64,000 nt of DNA from Phreatobacter sp. (GTDB lineage: Bacteria > Pseudomonadota > Alphaproteobacteria > Rhizobiales > Phreatobacteraceae). The stretch is taken from assembly GCF_022843985.1 (NCBI RefSeq), contig NZ_JALHMP010000016.1:1-64000 (forward strand). The letters run 5' to 3'. A program made the position numbers and the translations under genes. Below the pieces are notes generated by a model. That model was not told the origin of the DNA, did no database searches, and saw only the letters and a program-made list of their open reading frames with translations. Positions 6,907 through 27,645 of this stretch are shown in pieces; positions within the stretch are counted from its first letter, which is position 1, and each line of letters opens with the position of its first letter.

Positions 6907-7094
6907 GGCAGGTCTCGATGCGGAACACGAACGGAGGCAAGGTGATCTTACGGAGCACGTCCCCTGTGTCGAGCCGCCGCCGCGGGGATCAGCTGCCCAT
7001 CGGTCGCGCCGGGAACCTTGTGATTGACGCCAGACTTGATCCCGTGCCGTTCTCCGCCACCCTGTAGGCTGTGTGCCCCAGTTCCGGATCGCCG

Positions 7095-8372
7095 ATGCTT
7101 CGCCTGTTTCTCGTCGTCACCGCCCTGATCGCCGCGCCCGCCGCCGCCCAGGAACTCAGGGGCCATGGCGGCCCGGTCCGCGCCCTCGCGGCGGCGCCGG
7201 ACGGGCGTGTCGCCCTTTCCGGCTCGTTCGATACGTCTGCAATCCTGTGGGATATCGAGCGCGGCCTGGCCATGGCCGTGCTGCGCGGCCATGAAAGCTC
7301 GGTCAATGCGGTGCTGGCGCTGCCCGACGGGCGCTTCGTCACCGGCGGCGAGGACGGCCGCATCCTCCTCTGGCGCGCGGGCCGCCCCGAGCCGGAAGGG
7401 CGCATCGAGGGCCATACCGGACCGATCGCGGGCCTTGCCCTGTCGCCGGACGGACGGTTCCTTGCCTCCGCCGCCTGGGATGGCACGGCGCGGGTGACGC
7501 CGCTGGCGGGTGGAGAGGCCAGGGTCTTTTCCGGCCATCGTGGGCCCGTGAACACGGTCGCCTTCACGCCCGACGGACGCGCCATCGTCACCGGCGGCCA
7601 CGACGCCACGCTGCGGGTCACGCCGCTCGACGGCGCGACGCCCCGCAGCATCGATCTCGGTCTTCCCGTGGCCAGTCTTGTTGTCGCGACCGATGGCGAG
7701 ATCGTTGCCGGCGGCGCCGATGGCCGGTTGCGCATCCTCTTTGCCGACGGCACCCGGGTCGGCGAGATCGCGGCGGCTGAAACGCCCATCGTCGCGGTTG
7801 CACTGTCGCCCGACGGCCAGCGGATCGCCGCGGCCGGGATTCGCGGATCGGTGGCGCTGGTCGACCGGGCGTCGCGCCGGATCGAACGCGTGCTGGTCGG
7901 CCCGGGGCTGCCGGTCTGGTCGCTCGCCTTCCGTCCGGGGACCGACGAAGTGATGACCGGTGGTGGCGACCGGCTGGTGCGCCGCTGGCTGGCGACGACC
8001 GGCGAACATCTCGGCGCGGTGGTGCTGGCGCGACCGTCCGACCGTGTCGCCCGCCTCGCCGACCATCCCGGGGCCGAGGTCTTCCGCGCCTGTTCGGCCT
8101 GCCACACCCTCGATCCCGACGACGGCAACCGCGCCGGTCCGACGCTCCACGGCGTCATCGGCCGGCGCATTGGCACCGCCCCCGGTTACGACTTTTCGCC
8201 GGCTTTGCGCGGCATGGACATCGTCTGGACCAAGGAGACCATCGCCCGCCTCTTCGAGATCGGGCCCAACGCCTATACGCCGGGCACCAAGATGCCGGAG
8301 CAGCAGGTGACCGATCCCGACGATCTCAAGGCGCTCGTCGACTTCATCGCCAAGGCGACGGGCGCCGAATAG
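7095..8372 (+). CDS. Exported WD40-repeat/cytochrome c fusion protein
   Basis: The ATG at 7095 places a clean signal peptide first (MLRLFLVVTALIAAPAAAQ); the longer reading from 7071 would bury it. Residues about 20-320 are WD40-type beta-propeller repeats (repeated GH..PV..LA..PDGR..SGS.D). Residues 325-425 are a class I cytochrome c with heme motif CSACH (333-337) and a probable axial Met400 in GTKMPEQ. It is therefore a periplasmic heme protein with a propeller scaffold, probably an electron carrier or redox sensor. Its 3' end lies one base from the convergent Fe-S protein of the formate dehydrogenase region, which suggests but does not prove a role there. Confidence 0.88.
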   Translation: MLRLFLVVTALIAAPAAAQELRGHGGPVRALAAAPDGRVALSGSFDTSAILWDIERGLAMAVLRGHESSVNAVLALPDGRFVTGGEDGRILLWRAGRPEPEGRIEGHTGPIAGLALSPDGRFLASAAWDGTARVTPLAGGEARVFSGHRGPVNTVAFTPDGRAIVTGGHDATLRVTPLDGATPRSIDLGLPVASLVVATDGEIVAGGADGRLRILFADGTRVGEIAAAETPIVAVALSPDGQRIAAAGIRGSVALVDRASRRIERVLVGPGLPVWSLAFRPGTDEVMTGGGDRLVRRWLATTGEHLGAVVLARPSDRVARLADHPGAEVFRACSACHTLDPDDGNRAGPTLHGVIGRRIGTAPGYDFSPALRGMDIVWTKETIARLFEIGPNAYTPGTKMPEQQVTDPDDLKALVDFIAKATGAE

Positions 8373-8373: not shown

Positions 8374-10398
8374 TCAGTGCAGCCCGTCCTTGCCGGCCTT
8401 CGCCTCGGCAAGATAGTCCTCGGCCGTGCGCACCCGTGGGCGCGGCTGCGCCGCATAGGGGTCGAAGCCCTCGTTGACGACGCGCTCGACGCGGCAGTCC
8501 TCGCACATGAACAGCGCCTCGCGCCGCCCCGCATTGGCGCCGGAGAACATCCAGTGTCCTTCGAGCTTGGCGGCGATCCGCTCGATGGTGGATTTCGTGC
8601 CGAAAGCCTTGTTGCAGGTGGTGCAGTGGAACGGTTCCTCCTCCTTCACGATCCGCCGGGGCTCCTGCCAGGCGACGAAGTCGAGTTGCGGAATGAGGGC
8701 GATGGCGTCCTCCGGGCAGGTCTGCTCGCAGAGCCCGCACTGGACGCACAGGCTCTCGGTGAAGCGCAGCATGGGCTTGTCCGGATTGTCGGACAGCGCC
8801 GCCGTCGGGCAGGCCGAGACACAGGCCAGGCACAGGGTGCAAGCCGCGAGATCGACCTCGGCCTTGCCGAAGGGCGCCCCCTTGGCGAGGGCGATCCGTT
8901 CGACCGGGGCGGGTGCCGCCGCATGCAGTTCCAGGAACGACAGTTCCAACAGGCCGCGCTTCGTCCCCATCGGCAGGAAGGTCGAAGGCTTGGGCGACGG
9001 GGTGCCGGTGAAGGGCAGGGCGAGTGCCTCCGCCAGCGTGTCGGGATCGTCTGTCTCGATCAGCCGCACCACGCCAGCGCCGTAGCCCAGCGCCTGGGTG
9101 ATAGTGCGCGTCGTCTCCAGCGTCCGCGTCAGCCCGAGGAGATCGTGCTTCGGCTTGGCGCGGCCCAGCACCGCCACGCCCGCCGCGCCATAGGCGAGGG
9201 CGGCGGCGAAGACCTCCGGCCCGGCCTGGGTGATCTCGTTGACCTGTAGCGGCAGGACATGGGCCGGCAGCCCGGCGCCGAACCGCGCCACCGCGTCGAT
9301 CAGCGGCAGGCCGTGGTCGCCGTCATGGATCAGCAGGACGGCGCCCGCCCCGCCGGCCGCGGCATAGGTCGTCAGCAGGGTCCGCAAGCGGCGCAACAGC
9401 GCGTCGACCGGCGGCAGCGCATAGGCTGCGGCGCCCGTCGGGCAGGCCGCGGCACATTGGCCGCAGCCGGCGCAGACCGCGGGATCGATGGCGACATGGT
9501 CGCCGTCGGGGATGATCGCTCCGGTCGGGCACAGATCGAGGCAGCGCGTGCAGCCGGTAATCTGGTTGCGCGAATGGGCGCAGAGATCGGCCGTGAAGGT
9601 GACGAATCGCGGCTTGTCGAAGGTGCCGACGAGGCCGCTCGCCTCGCCGATCAGGCGTTCGACGGCTGCGGGATCGCGCGGGTCGGCGCGCAGATAGCCC
9701 GGTCGCAGCTCATGCGCCGGGAAGAGCGGCAACCCGCCTGACAGGTCGATGACGATATCCGAGGTGGAGGAGGCACCGTTGCGGGGCACCTGCCAGACAT
9801 AGGTGCGCCGCGACGACGGCGAGGCGAGAGCATAGTCGTCGACGTCCAAGGAGAAGGCGCCGAGATGGCCGTGGGCGGCGATGATCGTCCCCTTGACCAC
9901 CGGAAAGGCGGTTTCCCGCGGCGGCGTCACCTCGCCGGGCCGGGTGAGAAGGACGGTGACGTCGAGCGTCGCCGCGAGGCGGCGCGCCACCTGGATCGCC
10001 TCCTCGTCGCGGCCATAGATCAGCGCCACGCCCTTGGAGGTCAGCGACACCGCCTGGATCGGTGGCATGTCCTCGGCTGCCGCGGCGAGGAGCGCGGCGG
10101 TCTTCGGCCCGGTCCTTTGCGCCTCGGCCGACCATCCCGCCTGTTCGCGCACATTGGCGAAGGACAGGCGGCCGGCATGGCCGAGATCTTCCGCCACCTC
10201 CGAAAACAGCGGTGCCTCCTGGGTGCAGGCGACGGTCACATCACCGCCCTGAGCGACCACCGCCTTGAAGAAATCGAGCTCCTTGCGACAGAGCTGGTCG
10301 GCCGTGCGGACCTTGGTCCGGCACGCCTTCGCCACCGTCTCCCCATGCAAGGGCATGGTTTCCTCGCAGGAGCAGAGGAACGTGGTGCCTGCCGTCAT
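8374..10398 (-). CDS. Multi-cluster 4Fe-4S ferredoxin-type protein of the FDH cluster
   Basis: 674 residues from ATG 10398; an open frame continues upstream but is antisense to another gene. The N-terminus has CSCEETMPLHG and a NAD/redox-like domain of about 270 residues. Bacterial ferredoxin motifs follow: CTRCLDLCP with CAGCGQCAAACP near 290-325, and CTLCLACVSACP with CVQCGLCEQTCP near 525-570. The C-terminus has two further Cys pairs (CTTC and CEDC), possibly a zinc or rubredoxin-like site. Proteins of this layout are commonly encoded beside alphaproteobacterial formate dehydrogenases (family knowledge). It is cytoplasmic, with no signal, and is probably an electron-transfer or sulfur-transfer accessory factor. 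It is divergent from the accessory operon at 10507. Confidence 0.85.
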   Translation of the reverse strand: MTAGTTFLCSCEETMPLHGETVAKACRTKVRTADQLCRKELDFFKAVVAQGGDVTVACTQEAPLFSEVAEDLGHAGRLSFANVREQAGWSAEAQRTGPKTAALLAAAAEDMPPIQAVSLTSKGVALIYGRDEEAIQVARRLAATLDVTVLLTRPGEVTPPRETAFPVVKGTIIAAHGHLGAFSLDVDDYALASPSSRRTYVWQVPRNGASSTSDIVIDLSGGLPLFPAHELRPGYLRADPRDPAAVERLIGEASGLVGTFDKPRFVTFTADLCAHSRNQITGCTRCLDLCPTGAIIPDGDHVAIDPAVCAGCGQCAAACPTGAAAYALPPVDALLRRLRTLLTTYAAAGGAGAVLLIHDGDHGLPLIDAVARFGAGLPAHVLPLQVNEITQAGPEVFAAALAYGAAGVAVLGRAKPKHDLLGLTRTLETTRTITQALGYGAGVVRLIETDDPDTLAEALALPFTGTPSPKPSTFLPMGTKRGLLELSFLELHAAAPAPVERIALAKGAPFGKAEVDLAACTLCLACVSACPTAALSDNPDKPMLRFTESLCVQCGLCEQTCPEDAIALIPQLDFVAWQEPRRIVKEEEPFHCTTCNKAFGTKSTIERIAAKLEGHWMFSGANAGRREALFMCEDCRVERVVNEGFDPYAAQPRPRVRTAEDYLAEAKAGKDGLH

Positions 10399-10506: not shown

Positions 10507-11256
10507 ATGGCCCTCGTCACGCTCCGCGCCCCTTCGACCCTCGACTTGCCCCCCGGCTTTCGGGCCGTCCCGCTGCGCGAATCCGGGGATGCCTTCGCCC
10601 ATGCCTGCCGGATCGCAGCCGAGGACGGTGCCGGCACGCTCGTGTGGGTGCGGCGTTTCGACCTCGCCGAGTTCGCCGTGATCCTCGAGCCCGATCAGCC
10701 GCTGGCCGAGGCGCGCAAGGCCTTCTTCATCGGCATGAACGCTGCCGCCGACGCCATCGCCGCGCTCTGCCCGCCCGAGCGCAGCGTCTCCTTTGGCTTC
10801 CCCGACGCCATCCGCTTCGACGGTGGTCTGGTTGGTGGCGGCCGGCTCGGCTGGCCCAAGCGCTGCGGCGAGGACGAGGTTCCCGCCTGGATGGTCTTTT
10901 CGGCGAGCATCCGGGTCGCCTTTTCGGGTCTGGTTGAGCCCGGGCAGGCACCCACCGCCGCAGCCCTTGACGAGGAGGGTTTCGAGGGCGTCGGCCCCTC
11001 CATGCTGATCGAGAGCTTCGCCCGCTTCTTCCTGCGGCTCGTCGATGTCTTCCAGCATCAGGGCTTCGCACCGATCCTCGCCGATTATGTGCAGCGCCTT
11101 GCCAAGGACAGGCCCGGCGACACCCTGGCGCTCTCGCCCGCCGGCGACCTCATGATCCGCCCGGCCGTCGGCGACATGGAGCGCCGCCTCGGCTTTCTCG
11201 ACGGGCTGAAGGCCGCTGCCTGGCTCGACCGCGAGACGGGAGGGCCGAAGCTTTGA
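10507..11256 (+). CDS. Biotin/lipoate ligase-like protein (BPL_LplA_LipB_2 type), catalytic Lys absent
   Basis: 249 residues from ATG 10507. The fold signature is that of lipoate/biotin ligases: GTLVWVRRFDLAEFAVILEP (43-62), LAEARKAFF and PPERSVSFGFPDAIRFDG. In true ligases this last region reads KWPND...RK-(L/V)-(A/G)-G with an essential lysine. Here it is GFPDA (97-101) and GGLVGG, with Leu108 in the lysine position. This suggests a non-ligase role (inference from motif alignment by eye). It begins a tightly overlapping operon (next start TGATG) of FDH accessory proteins. No lipoylated substrate is encoded nearby. Confidence 0.75.
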   Translation: MALVTLRAPSTLDLPPGFRAVPLRESGDAFAHACRIAAEDGAGTLVWVRRFDLAEFAVILEPDQPLAEARKAFFIGMNAAADAIAALCPPERSVSFGFPDAIRFDGGLVGGGRLGWPKRCGEDEVPAWMVFSASIRVAFSGLVEPGQAPTAAALDEEGFEGVGPSMLIESFARFFLRLVDVFQHQGFAPILADYVQRLAKDRPGDTLALSPAGDLMIRPAVGDMERRLGFLDGLKAAAWLDRETGGPKL

Positions 11257-11807
11257 TGATGCTGCGCACCATCCGCCTCGACCCTTCCGACACCTTCGTC
11301 TTCCCCAGGGCGGCCGAACCCGGCGAATGGGCGGTGACCGGAACGTTCCTGTTCTGGGGCCGCGATGTCGCCGGCCTCGCCGGCAAGGAGCGCGCCGCCT
11401 TCCGCTCGGGCTTCGTCGGTGTCGCCTCGCTCGGCTTCTCGACACTCGTCGTCGCGCAGCCGATCCGGCCGGAGGAGCGCACCGCCGCGATCGACTGCCT
11501 TGCCCGCCACCTGGTCGACAAGCTCGGCGCGCCCGACATCGAGGCGGCCCGGGCCGCGGCGGCGGAGGAGATCGCCTTCGCTGCATCCCTCGCCGAGCAT
11601 GACGAGGGCACGCTGGTGGCCATGCACCGCGCCCTCGACGACGGCGAGATCCGCGAGCAGTTCCGCACCCTCACCGCCCGCGAAAAGACCGCCGGTGCCG
11701 ACAGCCTGCATGCGACGGCCCGCGCCTTCACCTTTCACGAGATCGTGGAGGACGATGGACCCGAAGAGCGGGTCGACCTGATCGACATGATGGCAGCCCG
11801 CAAATGA
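11256..11807 (+). CDS. DUF6505-family FDH accessory protein
   Basis: 183 residues; ATG 11256 overlaps the previous TGA stop (TGATG), showing translational coupling. A TTG at 11253 is a weaker alternative. The sequence opens with LRTIRLDPSDTFVFPRAAEPGEWAVTG and has no cysteine cluster, membrane segment or signal, so it is a soluble cytoplasmic protein. It matches what I know of DUF6505 proteins, found only in this gene neighbourhood. Function unknown; co-translation with the lipoate-ligase-like protein suggests a complex. Confidence 0.75.
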   Translation: MMLRTIRLDPSDTFVFPRAAEPGEWAVTGTFLFWGRDVAGLAGKERAAFRSGFVGVASLGFSTLVVAQPIRPEERTAAIDCLARHLVDKLGAPDIEAARAAAAEEIAFAASLAEHDEGTLVAMHRALDDGEIREQFRTLTAREKTAGADSLHATARAFTFHEIVEDDGPEERVDLIDMMAARK

Positions 11808-12844
11808 CCACCGAAACGCGCACCGTCACTGAATTCTGGGTCTCCTCCGGCCATCACATGACGCGCCGGGTCGAAGGCGGCGGCCTAGCCGTTACCGACG
11901 AGATGATTCTGGCCTATCTCGCCCGCCCGGAACTGATCCCGCCTGCCGAGGCCTGCGATGCCGAGCGCGCGCTGCACGCCGACCTGATGCGCGACCCGCG
12001 CCGCCCGGTGACCGCCGCCATGATTGCCGCCGTCGCGGACGAGGATGCCCGTGAGAACTGGCAGTTCATGATCGGCTTCCGCGACAAGCTGATGGCCCAT
12101 CCCAGCATCGAGGCGGCCTATCTCGCCATCGTCCGCCAGGGCGCCAGGGGCGTGCCGCCGCTCTTTCTCAACCAGCTCGTCCATCTCGTCTTGCGCAATG
12201 CGCTGGACGGCTGCGAGGACCCCTTTGTGCTGCGCGCGGCGGAACTCTTCTTCCGCCCTCAGAAGGGCTCGCTGAAGGACGGAACCCTGCTCCTGGCGGA
12301 CCAGGAGCTCATCGAGGCCTACGAGGCGGAGCGCCAGGCCTTGCTGCAAACCTCGCCGCTGGCCGCCATGATGGGCACCGACGGCCTGGGCGATCTGGAG
12401 ATCATGACGGACGAGACCGCGCCGACCTACTGGTCGCGCTCCGATGCCTTCTCGATGGTCTTCAACGTCGGCGGCGACCCGCGCTCCCGCGAGGCGCTGT
12501 GCCGGGCGCTGGAAACATGGATCGCCCATATGCTCGGGGTCGAGACGACCATCGTTCCCGTCGATCGCATCGAGGATGCCGATTGGCGCTGGTTCGTCGG
12601 CCTTGATGCCGAGGCCACTGCCCTCGGCAACCGGCTGTGGCGCGGCGAGGCGATCGATCCGGCCGACCAGAGCCGCGTCTGTGGCCTGTTCCGTCTCGTT
12701 TTCGCCGATGCCCGCATGGTCGACCCGAAGCTTGCGGGCAAGCCGGTCTATCTCATCATGGCGCTGACCGAGGACATGATCCTCCGGATCAAGCCGCAGA
12801 ACCTGATCGTCGGCCTGCCGATCGTTGGCCGGCAGGCGGCCTGA
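11804..12844 (+). CDS. DUF6352-family FDH accessory protein
   Basis: 346 residues; ATG 11804 overlaps the preceding stop by ATGA. It begins TETRTVTEFWVSSGHHMTRR, a His-containing N-terminus typical of this family, followed by a mostly helical protein with no cofactor motif visible. The C-terminus (MILRIKPQNLIVGLPIVG) is hydrophobic but not membrane-spanning. Homologs accompany DUF3305/DUF3306 near formate dehydrogenase genes (family knowledge). The biochemical role is unknown. Confidence 0.75.
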   Translation: MTTETRTVTEFWVSSGHHMTRRVEGGGLAVTDEMILAYLARPELIPPAEACDAERALHADLMRDPRRPVTAAMIAAVADEDARENWQFMIGFRDKLMAHPSIEAAYLAIVRQGARGVPPLFLNQLVHLVLRNALDGCEDPFVLRAAELFFRPQKGSLKDGTLLLADQELIEAYEAERQALLQTSPLAAMMGTDGLGDLEIMTDETAPTYWSRSDAFSMVFNVGGDPRSREALCRALETWIAHMLGVETTIVPVDRIEDADWRWFVGLDAEATALGNRLWRGEAIDPADQSRVCGLFRLVFADARMVDPKLAGKPVYLIMALTEDMILRIKPQNLIVGLPIVGRQAA

Positions 12845-12855
12845 GGGAGACATCC

Positions 12856-13374
12856 ATGCCCGTCCAGATCGTCACCGTCGGCATCGTCGCCGTGAAGCGC
12901 AAGCTGACCAATCCCTGGGTTGATTTCGAATGGCTCCCCGAGGCCGTGCTGCCGGGCCTGCCGGCGGTGGCGCCGGGCACGCTCATCAGCGCCGAGGGCA
13001 GCGTCGAGCGCTGGTATCTGGGCCCGGCGGAGCTGACCTTCCATTCCGGTGAGACCGCCCATTACCGCGACAATCTCCTGTCCGCCCGGCCTGCCGTCTG
13101 GGTGGCCCTGCGCGAAGGCGCAGAGGGCGGCTGGTTCGTGGCGGGAGCCACCGTCGACCCCTACGAGGGAGAGGCCTTCGTCGATGTGGTGTCGGACAAG
13201 GTCGAACCTCTTGCCATGCCGCACGAGATCGCCGTCGAACTGCAAGCCTTCGTCGATGCGCACCATGTCGATGCGCCCTTCTTCAAGCGCAAGCGCGACC
13301 GCAAGGATCCTCATGCCGAGCCCGAATTCGGTCTCGGACATCCGGGGCGTCAGGCCCCGGGGAGGCGCTCGTGA
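12856..13374 (+). CDS. DUF3305-domain FDH accessory protein
   Basis: 172 residues from ATG 12856, preceded by GGGAGA at a fitting distance; the longer open frame upstream overlaps DUF6352 and is ignored. The family pattern is clear: VTVGIVAVKRKLTNPWVDFEWLPEAVLPG, then TLISAEGSVERWYLGPAELTFHSGET and RPAVWVALRE. The C-terminal half ends in a basic, charged tail (FFKRKRDRKDPHAEPEFG). It is cytoplasmic and of unknown function. Its stop overlaps the GTG start of the DUF3306 gene, and the two families almost always occur as a pair. Confidence 0.85.
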   Translation: MPVQIVTVGIVAVKRKLTNPWVDFEWLPEAVLPGLPAVAPGTLISAEGSVERWYLGPAELTFHSGETAHYRDNLLSARPAVWVALREGAEGGWFVAGATVDPYEGEAFVDVVSDKVEPLAMPHEIAVELQAFVDAHHVDAPFFKRKRDRKDPHAEPEFGLGHPGRQAPGRRS

Positions 13375-14057
13375 GCCGCAGCCATGAAGGGTTCATCGCA
13401 CGCTGGTCGCGGCTGAAGCGCGAGCCCGAGCCGGCTGCGGCCCCGGCTGAGCAGCCCGCCGGCGAGGCACCGCCGCCGGCCCTTCCCGAGGGCCGGACGC
13501 TGGACGACCTCCTGGCGGAACTTCCGAAGCTCGAGCACCTCGTGCCCGGCCAGAGCCTGGCCGCTTTCATGCAGCCCTGGGTGCCGACCGGTCTGCGCAA
13601 CGCCGCGCTGCAGCGCATGTGGCTGCTCGATCCGGCTATCCGCGACTATGTCAGCCCGGCGTTGGACTACGCCTACGATTACAATACGCCGGGCGCCGCG
13701 CCGGGCTTCGGCCCCATCGAGACGGGCCGGGACGCCATCCGCGAAGTGGCCGAGATGTTCGACCGGGCGCTCGCGCGCGACGCGGCGGGGGAACCGGTCG
13801 GCAAATCCGGCGACGACGACAATGTGTCGCAAGCGCCGGCCGACCCAGCACCGGAACATGCTGCATTGCAACAAGTCCCACCCGCCGTGCGGGTTTCCGG
13901 GAGCCCGGGAGCCGGGGAGTCCGGCGATGACGCGGATAAGCCACGCCAGACCGGTGTTGAATCGGGTTCCGGTCGTGCTGCAACGCACAACAATGCCAGC
14001 GATACGAATGACTTGCGGCCTGTCGCACGGCGTCACGGCAGCGCGCTGCCGGGCTGA
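13371..14057 (+). CDS. DUF3306-domain FDH accessory protein with a low-complexity tail
   Basis: 228 residues from GTG 13371 (GTGA overlap with DUF3305). The conserved core covers about 1-125: FIARWSRLKRE, a Pro/Ala linker, LDDLLAELPKLE, then LRNAALQRMWLLDPAIRDYV and the G-rich PGFGPIETG stretch. Residues from about 145 on are low-complexity, Asp/Ala/Ser-rich, and use codons less GC-biased than the rest. A CCCGC-cgt-GCGGG hairpin followed by TTT lies inside this tail (13881-13896). The tail may be a recent extension by frameshift into former intergenic DNA, or simply disordered. Function unknown. Confidence 0.8.
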   Translation: MSRSHEGFIARWSRLKREPEPAAAPAEQPAGEAPPPALPEGRTLDDLLAELPKLEHLVPGQSLAAFMQPWVPTGLRNAALQRMWLLDPAIRDYVSPALDYAYDYNTPGAAPGFGPIETGRDAIREVAEMFDRALARDAAGEPVGKSGDDDNVSQAPADPAPEHAALQQVPPAVRVSGSPGAGESGDDADKPRQTGVESGSGRAATHNNASDTNDLRPVARRHGSALPG

Positions 14058-14171: not shown

Positions 14172-14981
14172 GTGCGTGAGCGGGGACTAGAGGAAGCGAT
14201 CAAGGCGGTCGGCGGGGTTGGTGCCCTGGCGCGTGCGCTTGGCATTTCGCAGCCTTCTGTTTCGAGCTGGAGCCGTGTGCCGCCCGAACGAGTGATCGCG
14301 GTCGAGAAAATCTCCGGTGTTGGACGCCACGTGCTGCGCCCCGATCTCTATCCCGAGAGCCGGTCCAGCATCGCCGTTGCCATGGAGGCGGCCCAGGATC
14401 GCGCCGCCGTCGACGAGATGGACAGGCTGCGGTCGGCCGAATACGGCCTTCTGGCCTTGCTTCTGTTCCGCGTTCCGACCGCCGATGTGCTCCGCCGCGT
14501 CGCCGCGCTCAAGGGCGATGCCTCGCCGCTTGGCATGGCCCATCTGGCCCTCGCCAAAGCTGCCGGCGAGGTCTCGGTCGAGGCGGTCAACCGCGAGTTC
14601 TTCGACCTTTTCATCGGCGTCGGTCGTGGTGAGCTCCTGCCTTACGCCTCCTATTATCTGACGGGGTTCCTGCACGAGCGGCCGCTGGCCGCGGTGCGCC
14701 AGTCCTTCGTCGACCTCGGCATCATCCGCGAGGACGATTCGCGCGAGCCGGAAGACCACATTGCCCTGCTGTTCGACGTGATGGCGAATCTCGCCTCCCG
14801 TGAGATCGGTCAGGGCTACGAGACGGAGAAGGCCTTCTTCGAGGCGCATCTGAAGCCTTGGGCCGGCCGTTTCTTCGCCGATCTGGAATCAATGACGAGC
14901 AGACCCTTCTACGCCGCCGTCGGCGCGGTCGGTCGCCTGTTCGTCGCCATTGAAGACGAGGCTTTCTCCTTCGACGCCTGA
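14172..14981 (+). CDS. Helix-turn-helix/TorD-type chaperone fusion
   Basis: 269 residues from GTG 14172. Residues about 5-60 form a YdaS/Cro-like helix-turn-helix (AVGGVGALARALGISQPSVSSWSRVP, then an R-rich YPE-type end). Residues about 70-260 are an all-helical TorD/DmsD-type chaperone domain (EYGLLALLLFRVPTADVLRR, YYLTGFLHERPLAAVR, EPEDHIALLFDVM). TorD proteins bind the Tat signal of a molybdoenzyme until the cofactor is inserted. The first Tat-signal genes start 30 and 267 bases downstream. The fused DNA-binding domain would let chaperone occupancy control transcription (inference). Confidence 0.85.
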   Translation: MRERGLEEAIKAVGGVGALARALGISQPSVSSWSRVPPERVIAVEKISGVGRHVLRPDLYPESRSSIAVAMEAAQDRAAVDEMDRLRSAEYGLLALLLFRVPTADVLRRVAALKGDASPLGMAHLALAKAAGEVSVEAVNREFFDLFIGVGRGELLPYASYYLTGFLHERPLAAVRQSFVDLGIIREDDSREPEDHIALLFDVMANLASREIGQGYETEKAFFEAHLKPWAGRFFADLESMTSRPFYAAVGAVGRLFVAIEDEAFSFDA

Positions 14982-15011: not shown

Positions 15012-15236
15012 ATGTCGGGTAGTGCCAAGAACCAAGGAAACGCCGCCGCTCCGGCCCGCCGCGATTTCCTCAAGGCGATGACGGGGGCGTCAGTCGTCAC
15101 CGCCGCCGCTGTTGTCGGCGCCGCGCCGGCCGAAGCCCAAACAGCCACGCGCGAAAGCCGGAACGAACGCACTAAGGCCCGCTATCAGGCCAATTCTGCG
15201 TATGTCCAGGCCTTCTACCGCACCAACCGCTACTGA
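15012..15236 (+). CDS. Small twin-arginine signal protein of the FDH region
   Basis: 74 residues with a Tat signal (ARRDFLKAMTGASVV, RR about 17-18) and cleavage near AEAQ. A short polar mature part follows (RNERTKARYQANSAYVQAFYRTNRY). It corresponds to the family described as formate dehydrogenase region TAT target. It sits 12 bases before the catalytic subunit. The role is unknown; a small structural subunit or assembly helper of the exported FDH is plausible. Confidence 0.85.
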   Translation: MSGSAKNQGNAAAPARRDFLKAMTGASVVTAAAVVGAAPAEAQTATRESRNERTKARYQANSAYVQAFYRTNRY

Positions 15237-15248: not shown

Positions 15249-18200
15249 ATGCTCATCAAGCGAAAGTCCCAGGACGCCTCCCGCACCCGCCTCGCCGGCC
15301 TTGCCGGTGGCCTGACCTCCGGGGTGATGGATCGCCGCACCTTCCTCGCCCGCTCCGGTCTCACCGCCGCCGGCGCGATCGCCGTCGGCTCGCTGACCCT
15401 CGGCGCGGTCCGTCGCGCTGAGGCCGTCGCTGCGCCCCAGCCGGGTGTCGCGATCACGGTGAAGAAGAACATGTGCACCCATTGCTCGGTGGGCTGCACG
15501 GTGAAGGCCGAGGTGCAGAACGGCGTCTGGACCGGTCAGGAGCCGGCCTGGGAGAGCCCGATCAACCGCGGCACCCATTGCGCCAAGGGCGCCGCCTCGC
15601 GGGAGCTCGTGTTCGGTGAGCGCCGCGTCAAATATCCGATGAAGCTTGTCGGCGGCCAGTGGCAGCGCATCTCGTGGGACCAGGCGTTCAACGAGATCGG
15701 CGACAAGATGATGGAGATCCGCGGCAAGTCCGGCGCCGATTCCGTCTATATGCTCGGCTCGGCCAAGTTCACCAACGAGGCGGCCTATCTGTTCCGCAAG
15801 TTCGCCGCCTTCTGGGGCACGAACAACGTCGACCACCAGGCCCGCATCTGCCACTCCACCACGGTGGCCGGCGTCGCCAACACCTGGGGCTACGGCGCCC
15901 AGACGAACTCCTACAATGACATCCGCAATGCCAAAACCATGATCATCATGGGCGGCAACCCCGCGGAGGCGCATCCCGTCTCGCTGCAGCACGTGCTGGT
16001 CGGCAAGGAGATGAACCGCGCCAACATGATCGTGATCGATCCGCGGATGACCCGCACCGCCGCCCATGCGACGGAATATGTGCGTATCCGCTCCGGCACC
16101 GACATTCCGGTGATGTGGGGCATCATGTGGCACATCGTGAAGAACGGCTGGGAGGACAAGGAGTTCCTCGCCAAGCGCGTGTTCGGCATGAACGAGGTGC
16201 TGAAGGAAGTCGAGAAGTGGGACCCGAAGACTGTCGAGGACGTCTCCGGCGTTCCCGGCGCCCAGCTTGAGAAGGTCGCCAAGCTTTTCGCCACTGAAAA
16301 GCCCTCGACCCTGATCTGGTGCATGGGCGCGACCCAGCACACGGTCGGCACGGCCAATGTGCGCGCCTACTGCAATCTGCTGCTGCTCACCGGCAATGTC
16401 GGCGGAGCGGGCAATGGCGCCAACATCTTCCGCGGCCACACCAACGTCCAGGGCGCCACCGATCTGGGCCTCGATGTCGGCAACCTGCCGCTCTATTACG
16501 GCCTGGTAGAGGGTGCCTGGCGCCATTGGTCGCGCGTCTGGGATGTGCCCTACGACTACTTCGTGTCGCGCTTCGACGACGTGCCGGCCAAGGGTGGCCG
16601 CGCCGCCCGCACCGGCAAGCAGAACATGGAGGTCTCGGGCATCCCTTCGACTCGCTGGTTCGACGCCGCCCTTCTGCCCGGCGAGCAGGTGGACCAGAAG
16701 GACAACGTCAAGGCGATGTTCGTCATGGGGCACGGTGGCAACACCATCCCGCGCGTCCCGGGGGCCGTTGAGGGCCTCGGCAAGCTCGAGCTGCTGGTTG
16801 TGGTCGACCCGCATCCGACAAACTTCGTGTCGCTGCACAACCGGCGAGACGGCACCTATGTCCTGCCGGCCTGCACCAATTTCGAGTGTGACGGCTCGCG
16901 GACCGCGTCCAACCGCTCGGTCCAGTGGGGCGAGAAGGTGGTCGAGCCGATCTTCGAATCGGCGACCGATTACTGGATCATCTACAAGTTCGCCCAGAAG
17001 CTCGGTTTCGCCGCCGAGATGTTCAAGAACTACACGATGATTAAGGGCAAGTACGGCGACGAGCCCCAGGCCGAATCCATTCTCCGCGAGATCAACCGCG
17101 GTGGCTGGTCGACCGGCTATACCGGCCAGTCGCCGGAGCGCATCAAGGCGCACATGGCGAACCAGGACAAGTTCGACATCGTCACCCTGCGTGCGCCGAA
17201 GGAACTGGCTGACGTCGGCGGTGACTTCTACGGCCTGCCCTGGCCCTGCTGGGGCAAGCCCGAACTGCGCCACCCCGGCACGCATATCCTCTACAACACC
17301 AATGTCACCATCAAGGATGGCGGCGGAACCTTCCGCCCGCGCTTCGGTCTGGAGCGTAACGGCGAGACGCTTCTGGCGCAGAATTCCTGGAGCCTCGACT
17401 CAGCAATCCAGGACGGCTATCCGGAGTTCACCTATGCCATCTTCCAGCGGCTCGGCTGGGACGCGGTGCTGACTCCCGAGGAGAAGGCGCAGATCGAGCG
17501 TCAGGGTGGAGCCAATCCCGGCGCCGTTTCCTGGGCGACCGACCTCTCCGGCGGCATCCAGCGGGTCTGCCTCGAGAAGAACGTCTGCCCCTTCGGCAAC
17601 GGCAAGGCCCGCGCCATCGCCTGGAACCTACCCGATCCGGTGCCGATCCATCGCGAGCCGATCTACACGCCGCGCACCGACCTCGTTGCCAAATATCCGG
17701 CCCGCGCGGACGAGCGCACGCTGCGCATGCCCAACCTCCACACGACCTATCAGAAGGGCGCCGTGGACAAGGGGATCGCCCGGCAGTTCCCGATCATCCT
17801 CACCTCCGGCCGTCTGGTCGAATATGAAGGTGGCGGCGAAGAGACCCGGTCGAACAAGTGGCTCGCCGAGCTGCAGCAGGACATGTTCGTCGAGATCAAC
17901 CCCCGTGACGCGGCCCAGCGGAACATCGCCGATGGCGGTTGGGTCTGGGTCGCGGGTCCCGAGGGCGGTCGTGCCCGCGTCAAGGCGCTGGTCACCGAGC
18001 GTGTCGGGCCCGGCGTCGCCTGGATGCCCTACCACTTCGGTGGCTGGTACCAGGGCGTCGACCAGCGCCGCAATTATCCGCAGGGGACGGATCCGATCGT
18101 CCTCGGCGAGAGCGTCAACACCGTGACCACCTACGGCTATGACCCGGTGACGGGCATGCACGAAGGCAAGGCCACGCTCTGCCAGATCCAGGCAGCGTGA
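15249..18200 (+). CDS. fdhA: Formate dehydrogenase, catalytic alpha subunit (Cys-dependent, Tat-exported)
   Basis: 983 residues; oxidises formate to CO2 at a Mo/W bis-MGD centre. The Tat motif is DRRTFLARSG (RR 29-30). The Fe-S site is CTHCSVGC (76, 79, 83) plus Cys111. The active-site segment is QARICHS, with Cys201 and His202 in the position of selenocysteine-histidine in E. coli FdnG; the codon is TGC, so no selenium is needed. Molybdopterin-oxidoreductase domains follow, with a dinucleotide-binding domain at the end (ILTSGRLVEYEGGGEETRS, AWMPYHFGGWYQG). The size fits the unsplit FdnG-like subunit. It is followed after 17 bases by the beta subunit. Confidence 0.95.
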   Translation: MLIKRKSQDASRTRLAGLAGGLTSGVMDRRTFLARSGLTAAGAIAVGSLTLGAVRRAEAVAAPQPGVAITVKKNMCTHCSVGCTVKAEVQNGVWTGQEPAWESPINRGTHCAKGAASRELVFGERRVKYPMKLVGGQWQRISWDQAFNEIGDKMMEIRGKSGADSVYMLGSAKFTNEAAYLFRKFAAFWGTNNVDHQARICHSTTVAGVANTWGYGAQTNSYNDIRNAKTMIIMGGNPAEAHPVSLQHVLVGKEMNRANMIVIDPRMTRTAAHATEYVRIRSGTDIPVMWGIMWHIVKNGWEDKEFLAKRVFGMNEVLKEVEKWDPKTVEDVSGVPGAQLEKVAKLFATEKPSTLIWCMGATQHTVGTANVRAYCNLLLLTGNVGGAGNGANIFRGHTNVQGATDLGLDVGNLPLYYGLVEGAWRHWSRVWDVPYDYFVSRFDDVPAKGGRAARTGKQNMEVSGIPSTRWFDAALLPGEQVDQKDNVKAMFVMGHGGNTIPRVPGAVEGLGKLELLVVVDPHPTNFVSLHNRRDGTYVLPACTNFECDGSRTASNRSVQWGEKVVEPIFESATDYWIIYKFAQKLGFAAEMFKNYTMIKGKYGDEPQAESILREINRGGWSTGYTGQSPERIKAHMANQDKFDIVTLRAPKELADVGGDFYGLPWPCWGKPELRHPGTHILYNTNVTIKDGGGTFRPRFGLERNGETLLAQNSWSLDSAIQDGYPEFTYAIFQRLGWDAVLTPEEKAQIERQGGANPGAVSWATDLSGGIQRVCLEKNVCPFGNGKARAIAWNLPDPVPIHREPIYTPRTDLVAKYPARADERTLRMPNLHTTYQKGAVDKGIARQFPIILTSGRLVEYEGGGEETRSNKWLAELQQDMFVEINPRDAAQRNIADGGWVWVAGPEGGRARVKALVTERVGPGVAWMPYHFGGWYQGVDQRRNYPQGTDPIVLGESVNTVTTYGYDPVTGMHEGKATLCQIQAA

Positions 18201-18217: not shown

Positions 18218-18814
18218 ATGGCCCGTATGAAATTCCTCTGCGACGCTGATCGCTGCATCGAGTGCAACGCTTGCGTCACCGCCTGCAAGAACGAGCACGA
18301 CGTGCCCTGGGGCATCAACCGTCGTCGCGTCGTCACGCTCAATGACGGCAAGCCCGGCGAGCGCTCCATCTCCATGGCCTGCATGCACTGCACCGACGCG
18401 CCCTGCGCGGCGGTCTGCCCGGTGAACTGCTTCTACACCACCGCGGACGCCGTGGTGCTCCACTCCAAGGAGCTCTGCATCGGCTGCGGCTACTGCTTCT
18501 ACGCCTGCCCCTTTGGCGCGCCGCAATATCCCCGCGTCAGCAACTTCGGCACGCGCGGCAAGATGGACAAGTGCACCTACTGCGCCGGTGGTCCGCTGGC
18601 TGACGGCTCGGCGGCTGAATATGCCTCCTACGGGGCCAACCGCCTCGCCGAGGGCAAGCTGCCGCTCTGCGCCGAGATGTGCTCGACCAAGGCCCTCCTG
18701 GCGGGTGACAGCGACATGATCGCGACCATCTACAAGGAGCGTGTGCTGAAGCGTGGCTACGGCTCAGGCGCCTGGGGCTGGCAGACGGCCTACAAGGAAA
18801 CGATCGCCATCTGA
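18218..18814 (+). CDS. fdhB: Formate dehydrogenase, Fe-S beta subunit
   Basis: 198 residues carrying four Cys groups for 4Fe-4S clusters: CIECNACVTACKNEH, CMHCTDAPCAAVCP, CIGCGYCFYACP and CTYC with a distal CAEMC. It conducts electrons from the alpha subunit to the membrane cytochrome. It has no own signal, as usual for subunits exported as a Tat complex with alpha. Compared with E. coli FdnH (about 290 residues) it lacks the C-terminal membrane helix, so anchoring must come from the gamma subunit alone. RBS GGGAGGA precedes ATG 18218. Confidence 0.95.
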   Translation: MARMKFLCDADRCIECNACVTACKNEHDVPWGINRRRVVTLNDGKPGERSISMACMHCTDAPCAAVCPVNCFYTTADAVVLHSKELCIGCGYCFYACPFGAPQYPRVSNFGTRGKMDKCTYCAGGPLADGSAAEYASYGANRLAEGKLPLCAEMCSTKALLAGDSDMIATIYKERVLKRGYGSGAWGWQTAYKETIAI

Positions 18815-18904: not shown

Positions 18905-19924
18905 ATGCGCTTCTCGCTTCGGTCTCTCGTTGCCACCTTTGCGGTTGCAATGGCCCTATTCGCCGCTGTGCCGGCCTTTGCCCAGCAGCCAAGCTCGGTC
19001 AATCCGACCGCGTCCGCCGTGCAGGAGCGCCAGCTTCTCGATGCACTGCGCGCGGGGACGCCGGGCCAGGGCACGACACTGTCGGGCCGCATCACCATCC
19101 CCGACGCCAGCGCCGGCAATCTCATCCAGCCGCAGGGCCAGGCCTGGCGGGTCTTCCACCAGGGCGCCATGCACTGGATAGGTGCCATCGCCATTCTCGG
19201 CATGCTGGTCCTTCTAGTCGTGTTCTACATGACGCGCGGCCGCATCATGATCGAAGCTGGCCGGTCCGGCGCCACGATCCTGCGTTTCTCCACCTTCGAG
19301 CGCTTCATCCACTGGCTGACCGCTGGCTGCTTCATCATCCTGGCGCTGTCGGGACTGAACGTAACCTTCGGCAAGTTCGTCCTGGCGCCGCTCTTCGGCG
19401 AGGACGCCTTCGCCGCCATGTCGCAATGGGCCAAATATGCCCATAACTTCCTCGCATGGCCGTTCATGCTGGGTCTGGTGTTCATGTTCGTCACCTGGGT
19501 TGTCCACAACCTCCCGGACAGCACGGACGTCAACTGGATCAAGAAGGGCGGCGGTCTGGTCGGCAGCGAGCATCCGCCGGCGAAGAAGTTCAACGCCGGC
19601 CAGAAGGTCATCTTCTGGTCCGTGATCATCGGCGGTGGCCTTCTGTCGCTCTCGGGTGTCTATCTCCTGTTCCCTGAATGGGCGGGCGGGGTTCTCGCCC
19701 TGCAGTTCTGGAACATCATCCACGGGATCGTTGCCGTTCTGCTGATCGCTGCCATGATCGCTCACATCTATATCGGCTCGATCGGCATGGAGGGCGCGGC
19801 GGATGCCATGACCTCCGGCGAGGTCGATCTCAACTGGGCCAAGGAGCATCATTCGCTCTGGGTCGAGGAGAAGATGGGCAAAGGGTCAATTCATCCTCAC
19901 GCCGCAGCCCAGCCCGCCGAGTAA
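18905..19924 (+). CDS. fdhC: Formate dehydrogenase, cytochrome b gamma subunit
   Basis: 339 residues; a membrane cytochrome b556-type subunit that passes electrons from formate to quinone. It has a cleavable signal (about 1-26, ending AFAQ), then a soluble segment of about 50 residues (27-78) not found in E. coli FdnI. Hydrophobic segments follow at MHWIGAIAILGMLVLLVVF, FIHWLTAGCFIILALSG, NFLAWPFMLGLVFMFVTWVV, VIFWSVIIGGGLLSLSGVY and IIHGIVAVLLIAAMIAHIYI. Histidines in these segments (FIHWL, HNFLAW, IIHGI, AHIYIG) are the candidate heme ligands. A terminator follows the gene. Confidence 0.93.
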   Translation: MRFSLRSLVATFAVAMALFAAVPAFAQQPSSVNPTASAVQERQLLDALRAGTPGQGTTLSGRITIPDASAGNLIQPQGQAWRVFHQGAMHWIGAIAILGMLVLLVVFYMTRGRIMIEAGRSGATILRFSTFERFIHWLTAGCFIILALSGLNVTFGKFVLAPLFGEDAFAAMSQWAKYAHNFLAWPFMLGLVFMFVTWVVHNLPDSTDVNWIKKGGGLVGSEHPPAKKFNAGQKVIFWSVIIGGGLLSLSGVYLLFPEWAGGVLALQFWNIIHGIVAVLLIAAMIAHIYIGSIGMEGAADAMTSGEVDLNWAKEHHSLWVEEKMGKGSIHPHAAAQPAE

Positions 19925-19950
19925 ACCTATCCGTCAGGTGATGCGATGCG

Positions 19951-20064: not shown

Positions 20065-20640
20065 ATGAAGGTCGTCGGACTTGCCGGGTGGAGTGGGGCG
20101 GGCAAGACCACGCTGCTCGCCCGCGTCATTCCTGTCCTGACCGGCCAGGGAGTCACTGTTTCGACAGTCAAGCACGCCCATCATGCGTTCGACATCGATC
20201 AGCCCGGCAAGGATTCCCACGCCCATCGCACGGCAGGCGCCACCGAGGTTCTGGTCGCCTCCGGCCGACGCTGGGCCCTGATGCACGAACTGCGCACAGC
20301 CGAGGAGCCGCGCCTGGCCGAACTCCTCACGCGGCTCTCCCCCGTTGACCTCGTCATCGTCGAGGGCTTCAAGCGCGAGGCCCATCCCAAGATCGAGATC
20401 CATCGCGCCGCCAACGGCAAACCCTGGCTCTTTCCCGACATCTCCCATGTCCATGGGCTGATCTGCGATGCCGATCCACCGCAGTGGAGCGGTCCCCGGG
20501 TCAGCCTGGACGCCGCCGAAGCGGCTGCCGGCCTGCTGCTGGATGCCGCCGAGCCGCTCGCTGACGTCATCGCGCGCCTGATGGCCACCCCGCCGCTGGA
20601 ACTGGCGCGCCAGCCGCGCAAGGCATCACGGACGGGATAG
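20065..20640 (+). CDS. mobB: Molybdopterin-guanine dinucleotide biosynthesis adaptor MobB
   Basis: 191 residues. P-loop GWSGAGKT (8-15) and the conserved STVKHAHHAFDID and VIVEGFKREAHPKIE stretches identify MobB, a GTP-binding helper that assists MobA in attaching GMP to molybdopterin. It starts at ATG 20065 and is followed after 2 bases by moeA. The last 15 or so residues are basic and variable. The location beside an MGD-dependent enzyme fits the function. Confidence 0.95.
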   Translation: MKVVGLAGWSGAGKTTLLARVIPVLTGQGVTVSTVKHAHHAFDIDQPGKDSHAHRTAGATEVLVASGRRWALMHELRTAEEPRLAELLTRLSPVDLVIVEGFKREAHPKIEIHRAANGKPWLFPDISHVHGLICDADPPQWSGPRVSLDAAEAAAGLLLDAAEPLADVIARLMATPPLELARQPRKASRTG

Positions 20641-20642
20641 CC

Positions 20643-21911
20643 ATGGCCCAGCTTTCCTCCGACCAGTTCGCCTTCGGCGGCCAGCTTCTGTCCGTCGAGG
20701 CGGCGCTGTCCCGTGTCGGAGCGGGCCTCGCTCCTGTCGCCGAGACAGAAGAGGTCCCCCTGCTTGAGGCCGACGGCCGCATCCTCGCCCGCGACATCGT
20801 TGCGCCCGTCAGCCTGCCCCCCTTCTTCAACTCCGCGGTCGACGGCTATGCCGTCCGCTTCGCCGACCTGACACCCGGGGCCGAGACGCGCCTCGCCGTC
20901 GGCTCGCGCGTTGCCGCCGGGGCCGTTGCCGCCGCCTCCCGGTCGGCGGAGGCGGTGCGCATCTTCACCGGTGCGCCGATGCCGGAGGGCTGCGACACCG
21001 TCTTCATGCAGGAGGATGTCCGGGTTGAAGGCGACGCCGTCGTTCTCCCGCCGGGCCTTGCCGCCGGAGCCAATTGCCGCCCGGCGGGTGAGGACCTGCC
21101 GGCAGGGGGTCTGGCCCTGGCCGCCGGCCGGCTGATGGCACCGGAAACCATCGCGCTGGCGGCCGCCCTTGGCCTGACCCAGATCACGGTCCGCCGCCGG
21201 GTCCGCGTCGCGGTCTTCTCGACGGGCAACGAGATCGTCTCGCCGGGCACGCCGCTTGGACCCGCCCAGCTCTATGATTCCAACCGGTTCATGCTTCAGG
21301 CCCTGCTCCGCCGCCTCGGCGTCGCCGTGACTGATCTCGGCATCCTCGGCGACGACCGGACGGTGATCGCCGCCGCGCTGCGCGCGGCTGCCGCGGACCA
21401 TGACCTCATCCTGACCTCCGGAGGGGTCTCCACCGGCGAGGAGGATCACGTCAAGACGGCAGTGGAGGCCGTCGGCAGCCTCACATTCTGGCGCCTCGCC
21501 ATCAAGCCCGGTCGCCCTGTCGCCATGGGCGTGATCCCCTCGGAGAGGCCCGGCCAGGCCGCCGCCTTCATCGGCCTCCCAGGCAATCCCGTCGCCGTCT
21601 TCGTTACCTTCGCCCATGTGGTCCGGCCGTTCCTGGCCGTTCTGGCAGGCGGCACGCCCGCTGCGCCCATGGCGCTGCCGGTGCGCGCTGCCTTCCCCTA
21701 CAGGAAGAAGGCCGGCCGGCGGGAATATGTCCGTGTCGCCCTGCGTCGCGGCGGCGATGGGATGATGGAAGCGGTGAAACATCCCCGCGACGGCGCCGGG
21801 GTCATCACCTCGCTGACCGAGACCGACGGCCTGATCGAACTGCCCGAACCGGTGGAGCGCGTCGCCGCCGGCGATACCGTTGCCTTCCTTGCCTATGGCC
21901 TGCTGCGCTGA
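20643..21911 (+). CDS. moeA: Molybdopterin molybdotransferase MoeA
   Basis: 422 residues; inserts molybdate (or tungstate) into adenylylated molybdopterin. The typical layout is visible: N-terminal VDGYAV with PFFNSAVDGYAVR, then FTGAPMPEGCDTVFMQED. The catalytic molybdopterin-binding domain has FSTGNEIVSPG, YDSN and SGGVSTGEEDH, followed by GLPGNPVAVFVTF and a C-terminal beta-barrel domain. All expected motifs are present, so this is the functional copy among three MoeA-family genes here. It converges with mobA with only 3 bases between the stops. Confidence 0.95.
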   Translation: MAQLSSDQFAFGGQLLSVEAALSRVGAGLAPVAETEEVPLLEADGRILARDIVAPVSLPPFFNSAVDGYAVRFADLTPGAETRLAVGSRVAAGAVAAASRSAEAVRIFTGAPMPEGCDTVFMQEDVRVEGDAVVLPPGLAAGANCRPAGEDLPAGGLALAAGRLMAPETIALAAALGLTQITVRRRVRVAVFSTGNEIVSPGTPLGPAQLYDSNRFMLQALLRRLGVAVTDLGILGDDRTVIAAALRAAAADHDLILTSGGVSTGEEDHVKTAVEAVGSLTFWRLAIKPGRPVAMGVIPSERPGQAAAFIGLPGNPVAVFVTFAHVVRPFLAVLAGGTPAAPMALPVRAAFPYRKKAGRREYVRVALRRGGDGMMEAVKHPRDGAGVITSLTETDGLIELPEPVERVAAGDTVAFLAYGLLR

Positions 21912-21914
21912 ACC

Positions 21915-22541
21915 CTAGGCCTCGGGAAAGCGGGCGAGGATCGCCTCGGCCTCAGCCAGATCCTCCGGGCTGTTGGCGTTGAAGAAGGGGTCATAGGGCA
22001 AGGTCGGCCAGGCGGCCTCGGCGATGCCGTGGCGCGCCGTCCAGTGGTCGATCTTGCGCATGTCCTCGACCACCAGGGCGTGGCGGAGGTCGGCGGCCAG
22101 CGATACCGGCCAGAGCCCGACCACCGGGTGGACCTGGTCGCCGGAGCGGGCGCAGGCGAGCGCCGCTCCCGCCGCCGCGCGCGCCGCATGCAATTGCGGC
22201 ACGAGATCGGCCGGCAGGAATGGCGAATCCGTCGGGATCGACACGAGCCAGTCCATCCCGGGCCGCTGCGCGGCCATCCATTCGAGGGCTGCCAGAATGC
22301 CGGCGAGTGGTCCCGCGAACCCTTCCACCGTGTCCGCCACGACCGGCAGGCCGAGACCGGCGAAGCGCGCCGGGTCGCCATTGGCGTTGACGATGAGACC
22401 GTCGCATTGCGGGCCGATGCGGGCCACGGCGCGATCGAGGAGGGTCACACCCCCGACGCTGCGCAGCGGCTTGTCGCCGCCGCCCATGCGGCGGGCGAGG
22501 CCGCCGGCCAGAAGCACGCCGAGGGTTTCGGGATGGTTCAC
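21915..22541 (-). CDS. mobA: Molybdenum cofactor guanylyltransferase MobA
   Basis: 208 residues from GTG 22541; transfers GMP from GTP to molybdopterin to give MGD. The nucleotidyl-transferase signature [17 protein letters not shown] (about 9-25) is intact. [15 protein letters not shown] carries the metal-binding Asp, and [14 protein letters not shown] is the usual C-terminus. It starts 3 bases after the fdhD stop, so the two are co-transcribed. An ATG does not exist at the right place, so GTG is the most likely start. Confidence 0.93.
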
Positions 22542-22544
22542 GCC

Positions 22545-23417
22545 TCAGTCCTCCGCGCCCTTGCGCCGGTGACGGGCGCTCTCGTCCGCGACATAGGCGA
22601 GGTCCTGATCGAAGACGATTCGATCCTCGCCGGCCAGCGCCACGAACCGCTTGCCCTTGGCGCGGCCGATCAGGGTGAGCCCGCACTGGCGCGCCAGTTC
22701 CACACCCCAGGCGGTGAAGCCGGAGCGCGAGACGAGAACCGGAATGCCCATCCGTACCGTCTTGATGACCATCTCCGAGGTCAACCGCCCCGTCGTGTAG
22801 AAAATCTTGTCGGCGCCGCTCTCGCCGTGGCGGAACATCCAGCCGGCGATCTTGTCCACCGCATTGTGACGGCCGACATCCTCCATATAGACCAGCGGCT
22901 GGTCTTCGCGGCACAGCACGCAGCCATGGATGGCGCCGGCCTCGAGATAGAGCGAGGGCATGGTGTTGATGGCGTGGGTCAGTCGGTAGAGCCACGACGT
23001 GCGGAACGCGGAGCGGGGCAGGGAGATTTCCGACAGGGCCTCCATCAGGTCGCCGAAGGCCGTGCCCTGGGCGCAGCCCGAGGTCTGGGTCCGCTTCTTC
23101 AGCTTGGCCTCGAAATTGGTGTGCTCTTCCGTGCGCACCACCACCACCTCGAGATCCTCGTCATAATCGACGCCGGTGACCACGTCGGTGGGCTTCAGCA
23201 TGTTCTGGTTGAGCAGATAGCCGATGGCGAGATAGTCGGGATAATCGCCGATCGTCATCATGGTGACGATCTCCTGGGCGTTCAGATAGAGCGTCAGCGG
23301 CCGCTCCACCGTCACCGCGGTCTCGATCCGCTCACCCCTCTCATTGATGCCGGTGACCCTCTCGGTGAGGCGCGGGTCGGCGGGGTTGGGTACGATGAGC
23401 GGGGCGGATTGGGACAT
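22545..23417 (-). CDS. fdhD: Formate dehydrogenase accessory sulfurtransferase FdhD
   Basis: 290 residues from ATG 23417. FdhD moves sulfur from IscS to the bis-MGD cofactor of FDH, which is essential for activity. Family motifs are present: LMTIG-like MMTIGDYPDYLAIGYLL, the loop TSGCAQGTAFG, and MEDVGRHNAVDKI with TTGRLTSEMVIKT. The E. coli CxxC loop (Cys121, Cys124) is reduced here to Cys115-A-Q-Gly118, so only the first cysteine is kept. An additional HGCVLC (Cys166, Cys169) lies before the DVGRHNA motif. It forms an operon with mobA and lies 70 bases downstream of the binding-protein gene. Confidence 0.93.
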   Translation of the reverse strand: MSQSAPLIVPNPADPRLTERVTGINERGERIETAVTVERPLTLYLNAQEIVTMMTIGDYPDYLAIGYLLNQNMLKPTDVVTGVDYDEDLEVVVVRTEEHTNFEAKLKKRTQTSGCAQGTAFGDLMEALSEISLPRSAFRTSWLYRLTHAINTMPSLYLEAGAIHGCVLCREDQPLVYMEDVGRHNAVDKIAGWMFRHGESGADKIFYTTGRLTSEMVIKTVRMGIPVLVSRSGFTAWGVELARQCGLTLIGRAKGKRFVALAGEDRIVFDQDLAYVADESARHRRKGAED

Positions 23418-23487
23418 GGCACCGGGGTCACAATGGAACCCGCGTCCATAGCACGGCGCCGCGGCGCCGTGCCATCGGCCCGGAGCC

Positions 23488-25168: not shown

Positions 25169-25197
25169 GGTTGTCTCCTCAGGTTTGTCGGACCGGA

Positions 25198-26633: not shown

Positions 26634-26733
26634 GGGAGGATAAGATCCAGTGTCGGAGGCAAACTATTGCGAACTCTACAAAAAATGCATAGGAATAGGC
26701 AAATATGGAATCAATGCACTTAAGGGCATGTTT
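26634..26733. promoter_or_regulatory. Divergent promoter region between tup operon and its regulator
   Basis: About 100 strikingly AT-rich bases compared with both neighbours, holding the promoters of the tup operon (minus) and of the HTH regulator (plus). It contains a direct repeat ATAGGAATAGG (26690-26700) and the palindrome ATGCAT. TTGCCT and TAGAGT on the minus strand, 18 bases apart, could be weak -35 and -10 elements. The operator is not identified with confidence. Confidence 0.4.
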
Positions 26734-27624: not shown

Positions 27625-27645
27625 CATGAACGGCGCGCGCCCCAT

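Follow-up and report, generated by a model that had tools for sequence, protein, structure and literature searches.

Maturation factors dedicated to formate dehydrogenases (FDHs) are already known as a kind. In Escherichia coli, FdhD and FdhE are cytoplasmic proteins that are tied to FDH genes and stay outside the final enzyme but are required for loading or proofreading of the sulfurated bis-molybdopterin guanine dinucleotide (bis-MGD) cofactor, and fdhE is systematically associated with periplasmic FDHs according to a 2023 review (PMC10609526). The proximity of the DUF3305 and DUF3306 families to FDH genes has been known since 2015, when the pair was described upstream of dmsD-fdhGHI operons and called putative membrane proteins (PMC4464133). 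For FDH1 of Methylorubrum extorquens, a tungsten cofactor pathway comprising MoeA1-MobB-MobA-FdhD and tupBCA was reported in 2026 (PMC13197769). Here we analyse a block of five co-oriented genes at positions 10507-14057 of a stretch of 64,000 nucleotides from Phreatobacter sp. (NCBI RefSeq assembly GCF_022843985.1, contig NZ_JALHMP010000016.1, positions 1 to 64,000), to which we refer as the window. The genes encode an LplA-like protein, DUF6505, DUF6352, DUF3305 and DUF3306, and Pfam profile searches place all five families where an initial annotation, made from the letters of the DNA, had seen them as one operon. Downstream lies an FDH of the FDH3 type, as judged from a beta subunit scoring above the curated NF038355 cut-off (Table 1), which is probably a tungsten (or molybdenum) formate dehydrogenase.

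The locus resembles each of these systems in part. FdhD is also encoded in the window, whereas none of the five proteins is FdhD or FdhE (PF04216) by Pfam. The DUF3305/DUF3306 pair belongs to the same two families as the pair described in 2015 and likewise stands beside a TorD/DmsD-type chaperone and an FDH; however, the proteins look soluble here and are tied to FDH3 by genome profiling, and DUF6505 and DUF6352 are not named in that paper. A literature search by DUF names likewise found neither DUF6505 nor DUF6352 named in any paper. The cofactor and transporter genes that cluster with FDH3 in the window are of the kinds reported for M. extorquens, whereas the published pathway concerns FDH1 and its text mentions neither FDH3 nor any DUF. 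As explanation of the block as a whole we propose, with a probability of roughly 0.6, a two-tier cytoplasmic maturation module for an FDH3 that is exported by the twin-arginine translocation (Tat) system.

To relate the five families to FDH3, we profiled 150 Pseudomonadota genomes, drawn evenly from the phylum, and scored the FDH3 beta subunit above the NF038355 cut-off. The beta subunit was present in 20 genomes, and DUF3305 and DUF3306 were each found in exactly the same 20. DUF6505 (14 genomes), DUF6352 (9 genomes) and a strong PF16917 subfamily comprising the LplA-like proteins (above 150 bits; 13 genomes) all fell within these 20 as well. Thus, the four DUF families and the strong subfamily are not widespread outside FDH genomes, whereas PF16917 taken as a whole is; its weak matches elsewhere are presumably ordinary biotin/lipoate ligases. 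Among 289 alphaproteobacterial genomes, 45 of which carry FDH3-beta, DUF6505 was detected above cut-off in 30 (28 of them FDH3-positive; Fisher 6e-25) and DUF6352 in 34 (33 FDH3-positive; Fisher 3e-32), these tests counting genomes as independent. In about nine FDH3-positive genomes, DUF6505 resides on another contig or hundreds of kilobases away from FDH3-beta. Even so, LplA-like-DUF6505-DUF6352 stay together in five genomes (G334, G255, G400, G412 and G331) and LplA-like-DUF6352 in a sixth (G229), while members lie scattered singly in G016 and G019. As co-occurrence outlasts linkage, it provides better functional evidence than gene order. The dedication to one FDH type and the maturation role put forward in the initial annotation are supported by this co-occurrence, including the unlinked genomes, and by the neighbouring tungsten/molybdenum cofactor genes, and we regard FDH3-specific maturation as such as likely.

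Gene order was assessed in 80 related loci, that is the best DUF6505 matches in public genomes. These are mostly Hyphomicrobiales, and their selection by DUF6505 similarity biases them to close relatives. All five genes are present in 73 loci, in every case in the same order and on the same strand, and hence the block is no chance arrangement. FdhA or FdhB was found within the available stretch in 70 of the 80.

However, the set does not behave as one unit. It splits into a near-universal DUF3305-DUF3306 core and a dispensable accessory set, LplA-like-DUF6505(-DUF6352), which was lost repeatedly, and this division is well supported by gene content. A quick tree built from 58 FdhA proteins requires at least 11 changes in the presence of DUF6505 and five in that of DUF6352, as compared to four for the core. 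The core pair is missing from the stretch near five FdhA copies, namely those of G200 and G372 (sister rows), the second copies of G195 and G270, and that of G266. Outside the Alphaproteobacteria, the set is limited to the core, the multi-[4Fe-4S] protein FeS and TorD in members such as G050, G066, G086 and G098; core, TorD and FeS accompany FDH3 almost everywhere, and FeS is a neighbour of the core at the majority of the FDH3 loci inspected, even when the accessory set is absent. Conversely, LplA-like-DUF6505-DUF6352 is found travelling without DUF3305-DUF3306. The initial annotation had envisaged a single dedicated FDH3 assembly complex of all five proteins. The fixed order would suit such a complex, as would translational coupling, which is strongest at DUF3305-DUF3306 (4-nucleotide overlap in 59/66 loci) and DUF6505-DUF6352 (coupled in 38/56 loci), but the DUF6352-DUF3305 junction is mostly gapped across loci, and the differing numbers of changes on the tree and the separate travel fit a core pair plus accessory set better. 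We therefore consider one complex of five improbable. Since many FDH3 lineages lack the accessory proteins, these would be improvers rather than absolute requirements. At FDH3 loci beyond the class (L007, L009, L013, L018 and L019), FeS, DUF3306, DUF3305 and TorD were seen on the same strand, without LplA-like or DUF6505 genes.

What the proteins could do was addressed through their motifs, predicted folds and neighbours. The LplA-like protein has the BPL/LplA/LipB fold by profile (PF16917, E 8e-56). It is a full-length relative of PDB 3bfm (E 7e-89), which is titled 'biotin protein ligase-like protein of unknown function' and whose entry states no link to FDH3, and it also matches BirA (E 6e-5). 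BirA chemistry requires K183 and the GRGRxGR loop. Across 86 sequences, of which 72 were matched by pattern and the other 14 inspected by eye, the position of K183 holds Leu, Arg, Val, Ile or Glu and never Lys, and a GRGRxGR or RRxGGG substrate/ATP loop was found by pattern in none of the 86. Lack of the catalytic lysine throughout makes the protein probably a pseudo-ligase with BirA fold. An active ligase, transferring lipoate, biotin or another acyl group via acyl-AMP onto DUF6505 or an FDH subunit, would agree with the BirA-type fold and with the stable pairing of the LplA-like protein with DUF6505. Beyond the missing residues, however, no lipoyl domain was detected in the scanned neighbours, and DUF6505 was rejected as acceptor because its AlphaFold2 (AF2) model has two long helices, unlike the all-beta lipoyl/biotinyl domain. 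The lipoate ligase activity implied by the earlier naming is thus very improbable. Just as improbable is the proposal that the five form a branch carrying electrons to FDH3, as raised at the outset, or away from it, even though the gene for the multi-cluster FeS protein runs divergently from the block and a WD40-cytochrome c is encoded nearby. The five family alignments contain not a single CxxC motif of the kind that binds Fe-S clusters or haem, and a crude test by hydropathy and Tat pattern found no general transmembrane or Tat/export signal in the five families, with a loose twin-arginine pattern being matched by 14 of 91 DUF3305 sequences, by chance or otherwise. By these features all five look cytoplasmic and soluble. 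FdhA, in turn, is of the Tat type, FdhC is a cytochrome b subunit, and no further electron carrier recurs at the loci besides FeS and WD40-cytochrome c. The missing export, membrane and CxxC signals, together with MobA, MobB, MoeA, FdhD and TupABC in the adjacent island, favour cytoplasmic maturation of the tungsten/molybdenum bis-MGD and Fe-S cofactors over electron delivery.

Another conceivable role is that of a regulatory or Tat quality-control set, which would sense unfilled FdhA and, together with the helix-turn-helix (HTH)-TorD protein, couple maturation to transcription or export. This would be in line with the HTH-TorD fusion, present in 58 of 128 TorD open reading frames from related loci, and with TorD adjoining DUF3306 nearly always at FDH3 loci. 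It could also draw on the distribution of FdhE, which occurs in 15 of the 150 genomes and in 0/20 FDH3-positive as compared to 15/130 other genomes; thus, FDH3 does without FdhE in the genomes sampled, in contrast to the association of fdhE with periplasmic FDHs described in the 2023 review. Yet zero FdhE would arise by chance with P 0.10, so that its exclusion from FDH3-positive genomes is not significant and merely suggestive, and the recurrent extra neighbours are cofactor genes rather than regulators. A quality-control set hence appears rather unlikely.

The neighbouring genes point to different roles for the two tiers of the proposed maturation module. In four genomes (G184, G248, G270 and G327), DUF3305 lies directly beside MobA or overlaps it, and FdhD stands ahead of MobA. 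The NCBIfam model NF011058 describes a MobA-DUF3305 fusion family whose C-terminal part matches DUF3305 of the window; in G306, MobA overlaps the LplA-like gene and FdhD lies upstream. The accessory set directly follows an Mrp-type NTPase (PF10609, in most of those tested together with PF01883) at seven loci linked to FDH3 (L002, L003, L005, L006, L008, L010 and L132) and at three loci without such linkage, which belong to a single group at genus level (G255/G334/G400). These Mrp-preceded loci include Rhodobacterales-type loci and the G070/G133 family, and in Bradyrhizobium, Afipia and Beijerinckiaceae loci an Mrp-type NTPase follows FeS. Some FDH3-linked Mrp proteins (L042:6163-7044, L002:3491-4567) are without the PF01883 domain, as if a specialised paralogue.

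In our model, DUF3305-DUF3306 would accept bis-MGD where MobA and FdhD end the pathway and assist its insertion into apo-FdhA prior to export, a core role to which we give even odds. Together with DUF6505, and in many cases DUF6352, the LplA-like pseudo-ligase may form a binding platform that would work with an Mrp/NUBPL-type Fe-S carrier, either to load [4Fe-4S] clusters into FdhA/FdhB or to check them before Tat export; this accessory role is more tentative. The biochemical steps of both tiers are what we infer from the gene context. That both parts hold jointly, i.e. that pseudoenzyme, DUF6505, DUF6352 and Mrp/NUBPL-type NTPase constitute an FDH3 Fe-S loader while DUF3305-DUF3306 provide a MobA-to-FdhA hand-off replacing FdhE in Tat-exported FDHs, is doubtful. 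Enzymes of the FDH3 type occur commonly in Alphaproteobacteria and are candidate catalysts for CO2/formate conversion, and the module bears on the question of how periplasmic FDHs can mature when FdhE is missing. Should the proposal hold, a testable role would be gained for five DUF or mis-named families, the 'lipoate ligase' annotation would be corrected, and a defined list of helper genes for heterologous FDH3 production would be at hand.

Several observations weigh against a maturation module of this kind. Three genomes, the only exceptions, carry a family without FDH3-beta: in G240, which is without an FdhA relative, DUF6505 is broken by a stop, while G368 and G155 are many-contig drafts with other molybdoenzymes, in both of which the family gene stands beside a TupA-type gene. 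By our reading, DUF6505 and DUF6352 are both missing in six FDH3-positive Alphaproteobacteria, and G200 and G372 are FDH3-positive with no core genes within ~10 kilobases; indispensability is therefore demonstrated for none of the five. The Mrp link is not seen in the window itself, the Mrp copies at the loci may be the housekeeping gene in some genomes, and adjacency of genes is not interaction of proteins. Likewise, structure yields no function, as the AF2 models of DUF3305 (mean confidence, pLDDT, 85) and DUF6505 (pLDDT 82) match no known fold: their best Foldseek E-values against solved structures are 0.24 and 1.2 and their VIA-align Z scores at most 2.5, which is noise level and not evidence of new folds. 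Sequence searches of the PDB with the DUF6352, DUF6505, DUF3305 and DUF3306 profiles gave no credible match, hhalign found no homology among DUF6352, DUF6505 and DUF3305, and natural fusions among the five proteins were absent from 157 loci.

Table 1. The five-gene block, the FDH3 genes and their surroundings in the window.
Feature	Assignment	Position	Strand	Support
LplA/BirA-like protein, PF16917	accessory set; probable pseudo-ligase	10507..11256	+	Pfam E 8e-56
DUF6505, PF20115	accessory set	11256..11807	+	Pfam E 9e-56
DUF6352, PF19879	accessory set	11804..12844	+	Pfam E 2e-58
DUF3305, PF11749	core pair	12856..13374	+	Pfam E 3e-31
DUF3306, PF11748	core pair	13371..14057	+	Pfam E 5e-11
HTH (YdaS/Cro-like)-TorD fusion	Tat-proofreading-type chaperone	14172..14981	+	PF15943/PF14549 + PF02613
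Formate dehydrogenase region TAT-target peptide		15012..15236	+	TIGR02811-like, under its cut-off
FdhA	catalytic subunit	15249..18200	+	profile match; twin-arginine motif DRRTFLARSG
FdhB	FDH3 beta subunit	18218..18814	+	NF038355, 334 bits (cut-off 240)
FdhC	cytochrome b gamma subunit	18905..19924	+	
FeS	multi-[4Fe-4S] protein without export signal, divergent	8374..10398	-	
WD40-cytochrome c fusion		7071..8372	+	
MobB		20065..20640	+	
MoeA		20643..21911	+	
MobA		21915..22541	-	
FdhD	sulfurtransferase	22545..23753	-	
TupA-, ABC-, TupB-like proteins	tungstate-type ABC transporter	24293..26543	-	NF041772, 225 bits; NF041773, 148 bits; both under equivalog cut-offs
HTH-PBP regulator + two MoeA-like proteins		26650..30626	+	

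Within the window, the start/stop overlaps noted in the initial annotation exist at three of the four junctions, namely LplA-like/DUF6505 (1 nucleotide, TGATG at 11256), DUF6505/DUF6352 (4 nucleotides, ATGA at 11804) and DUF3305/DUF3306 (4 nucleotides, GTGA at 13371), whereas DUF6352 and DUF3305 are separated by a gap of 11 nucleotides, a slight correction. As described there, the operon leads into the HTH-TorD gene and the FDH genes, now recognized as FdhABC of the FDH3 type, and is divergent from the multi-cluster Fe-S gene (Table 1). DUF3306 and HTH-TorD are 114 nucleotides apart, and no terminator-like site was seen when looked for in this gap. The Tat signal of FdhA, a pattern match only, is close to the N-terminus. 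The cofactor genes form a compact tungsten/molybdenum island at 20065-30626, with MobB, three MoeA-like proteins, MobA, FdhD, the Tup-like transporter and the HTH-PBP regulator. An open reading frame at 19938-20348 overlaps MobB in another frame and is probably no gene. DUF6505 of the window has its closest relative in another Phreatobacter locus (L027; 93% identity). The HTH-TorD fusion perhaps links maturation to transcription. FeS carries an N-terminal CSC motif and a C-terminal CxxC...CxxC pair, and the WD40-cytochrome c, frequent at FDH3 loci, is a possible periplasmic partner of FDH3.

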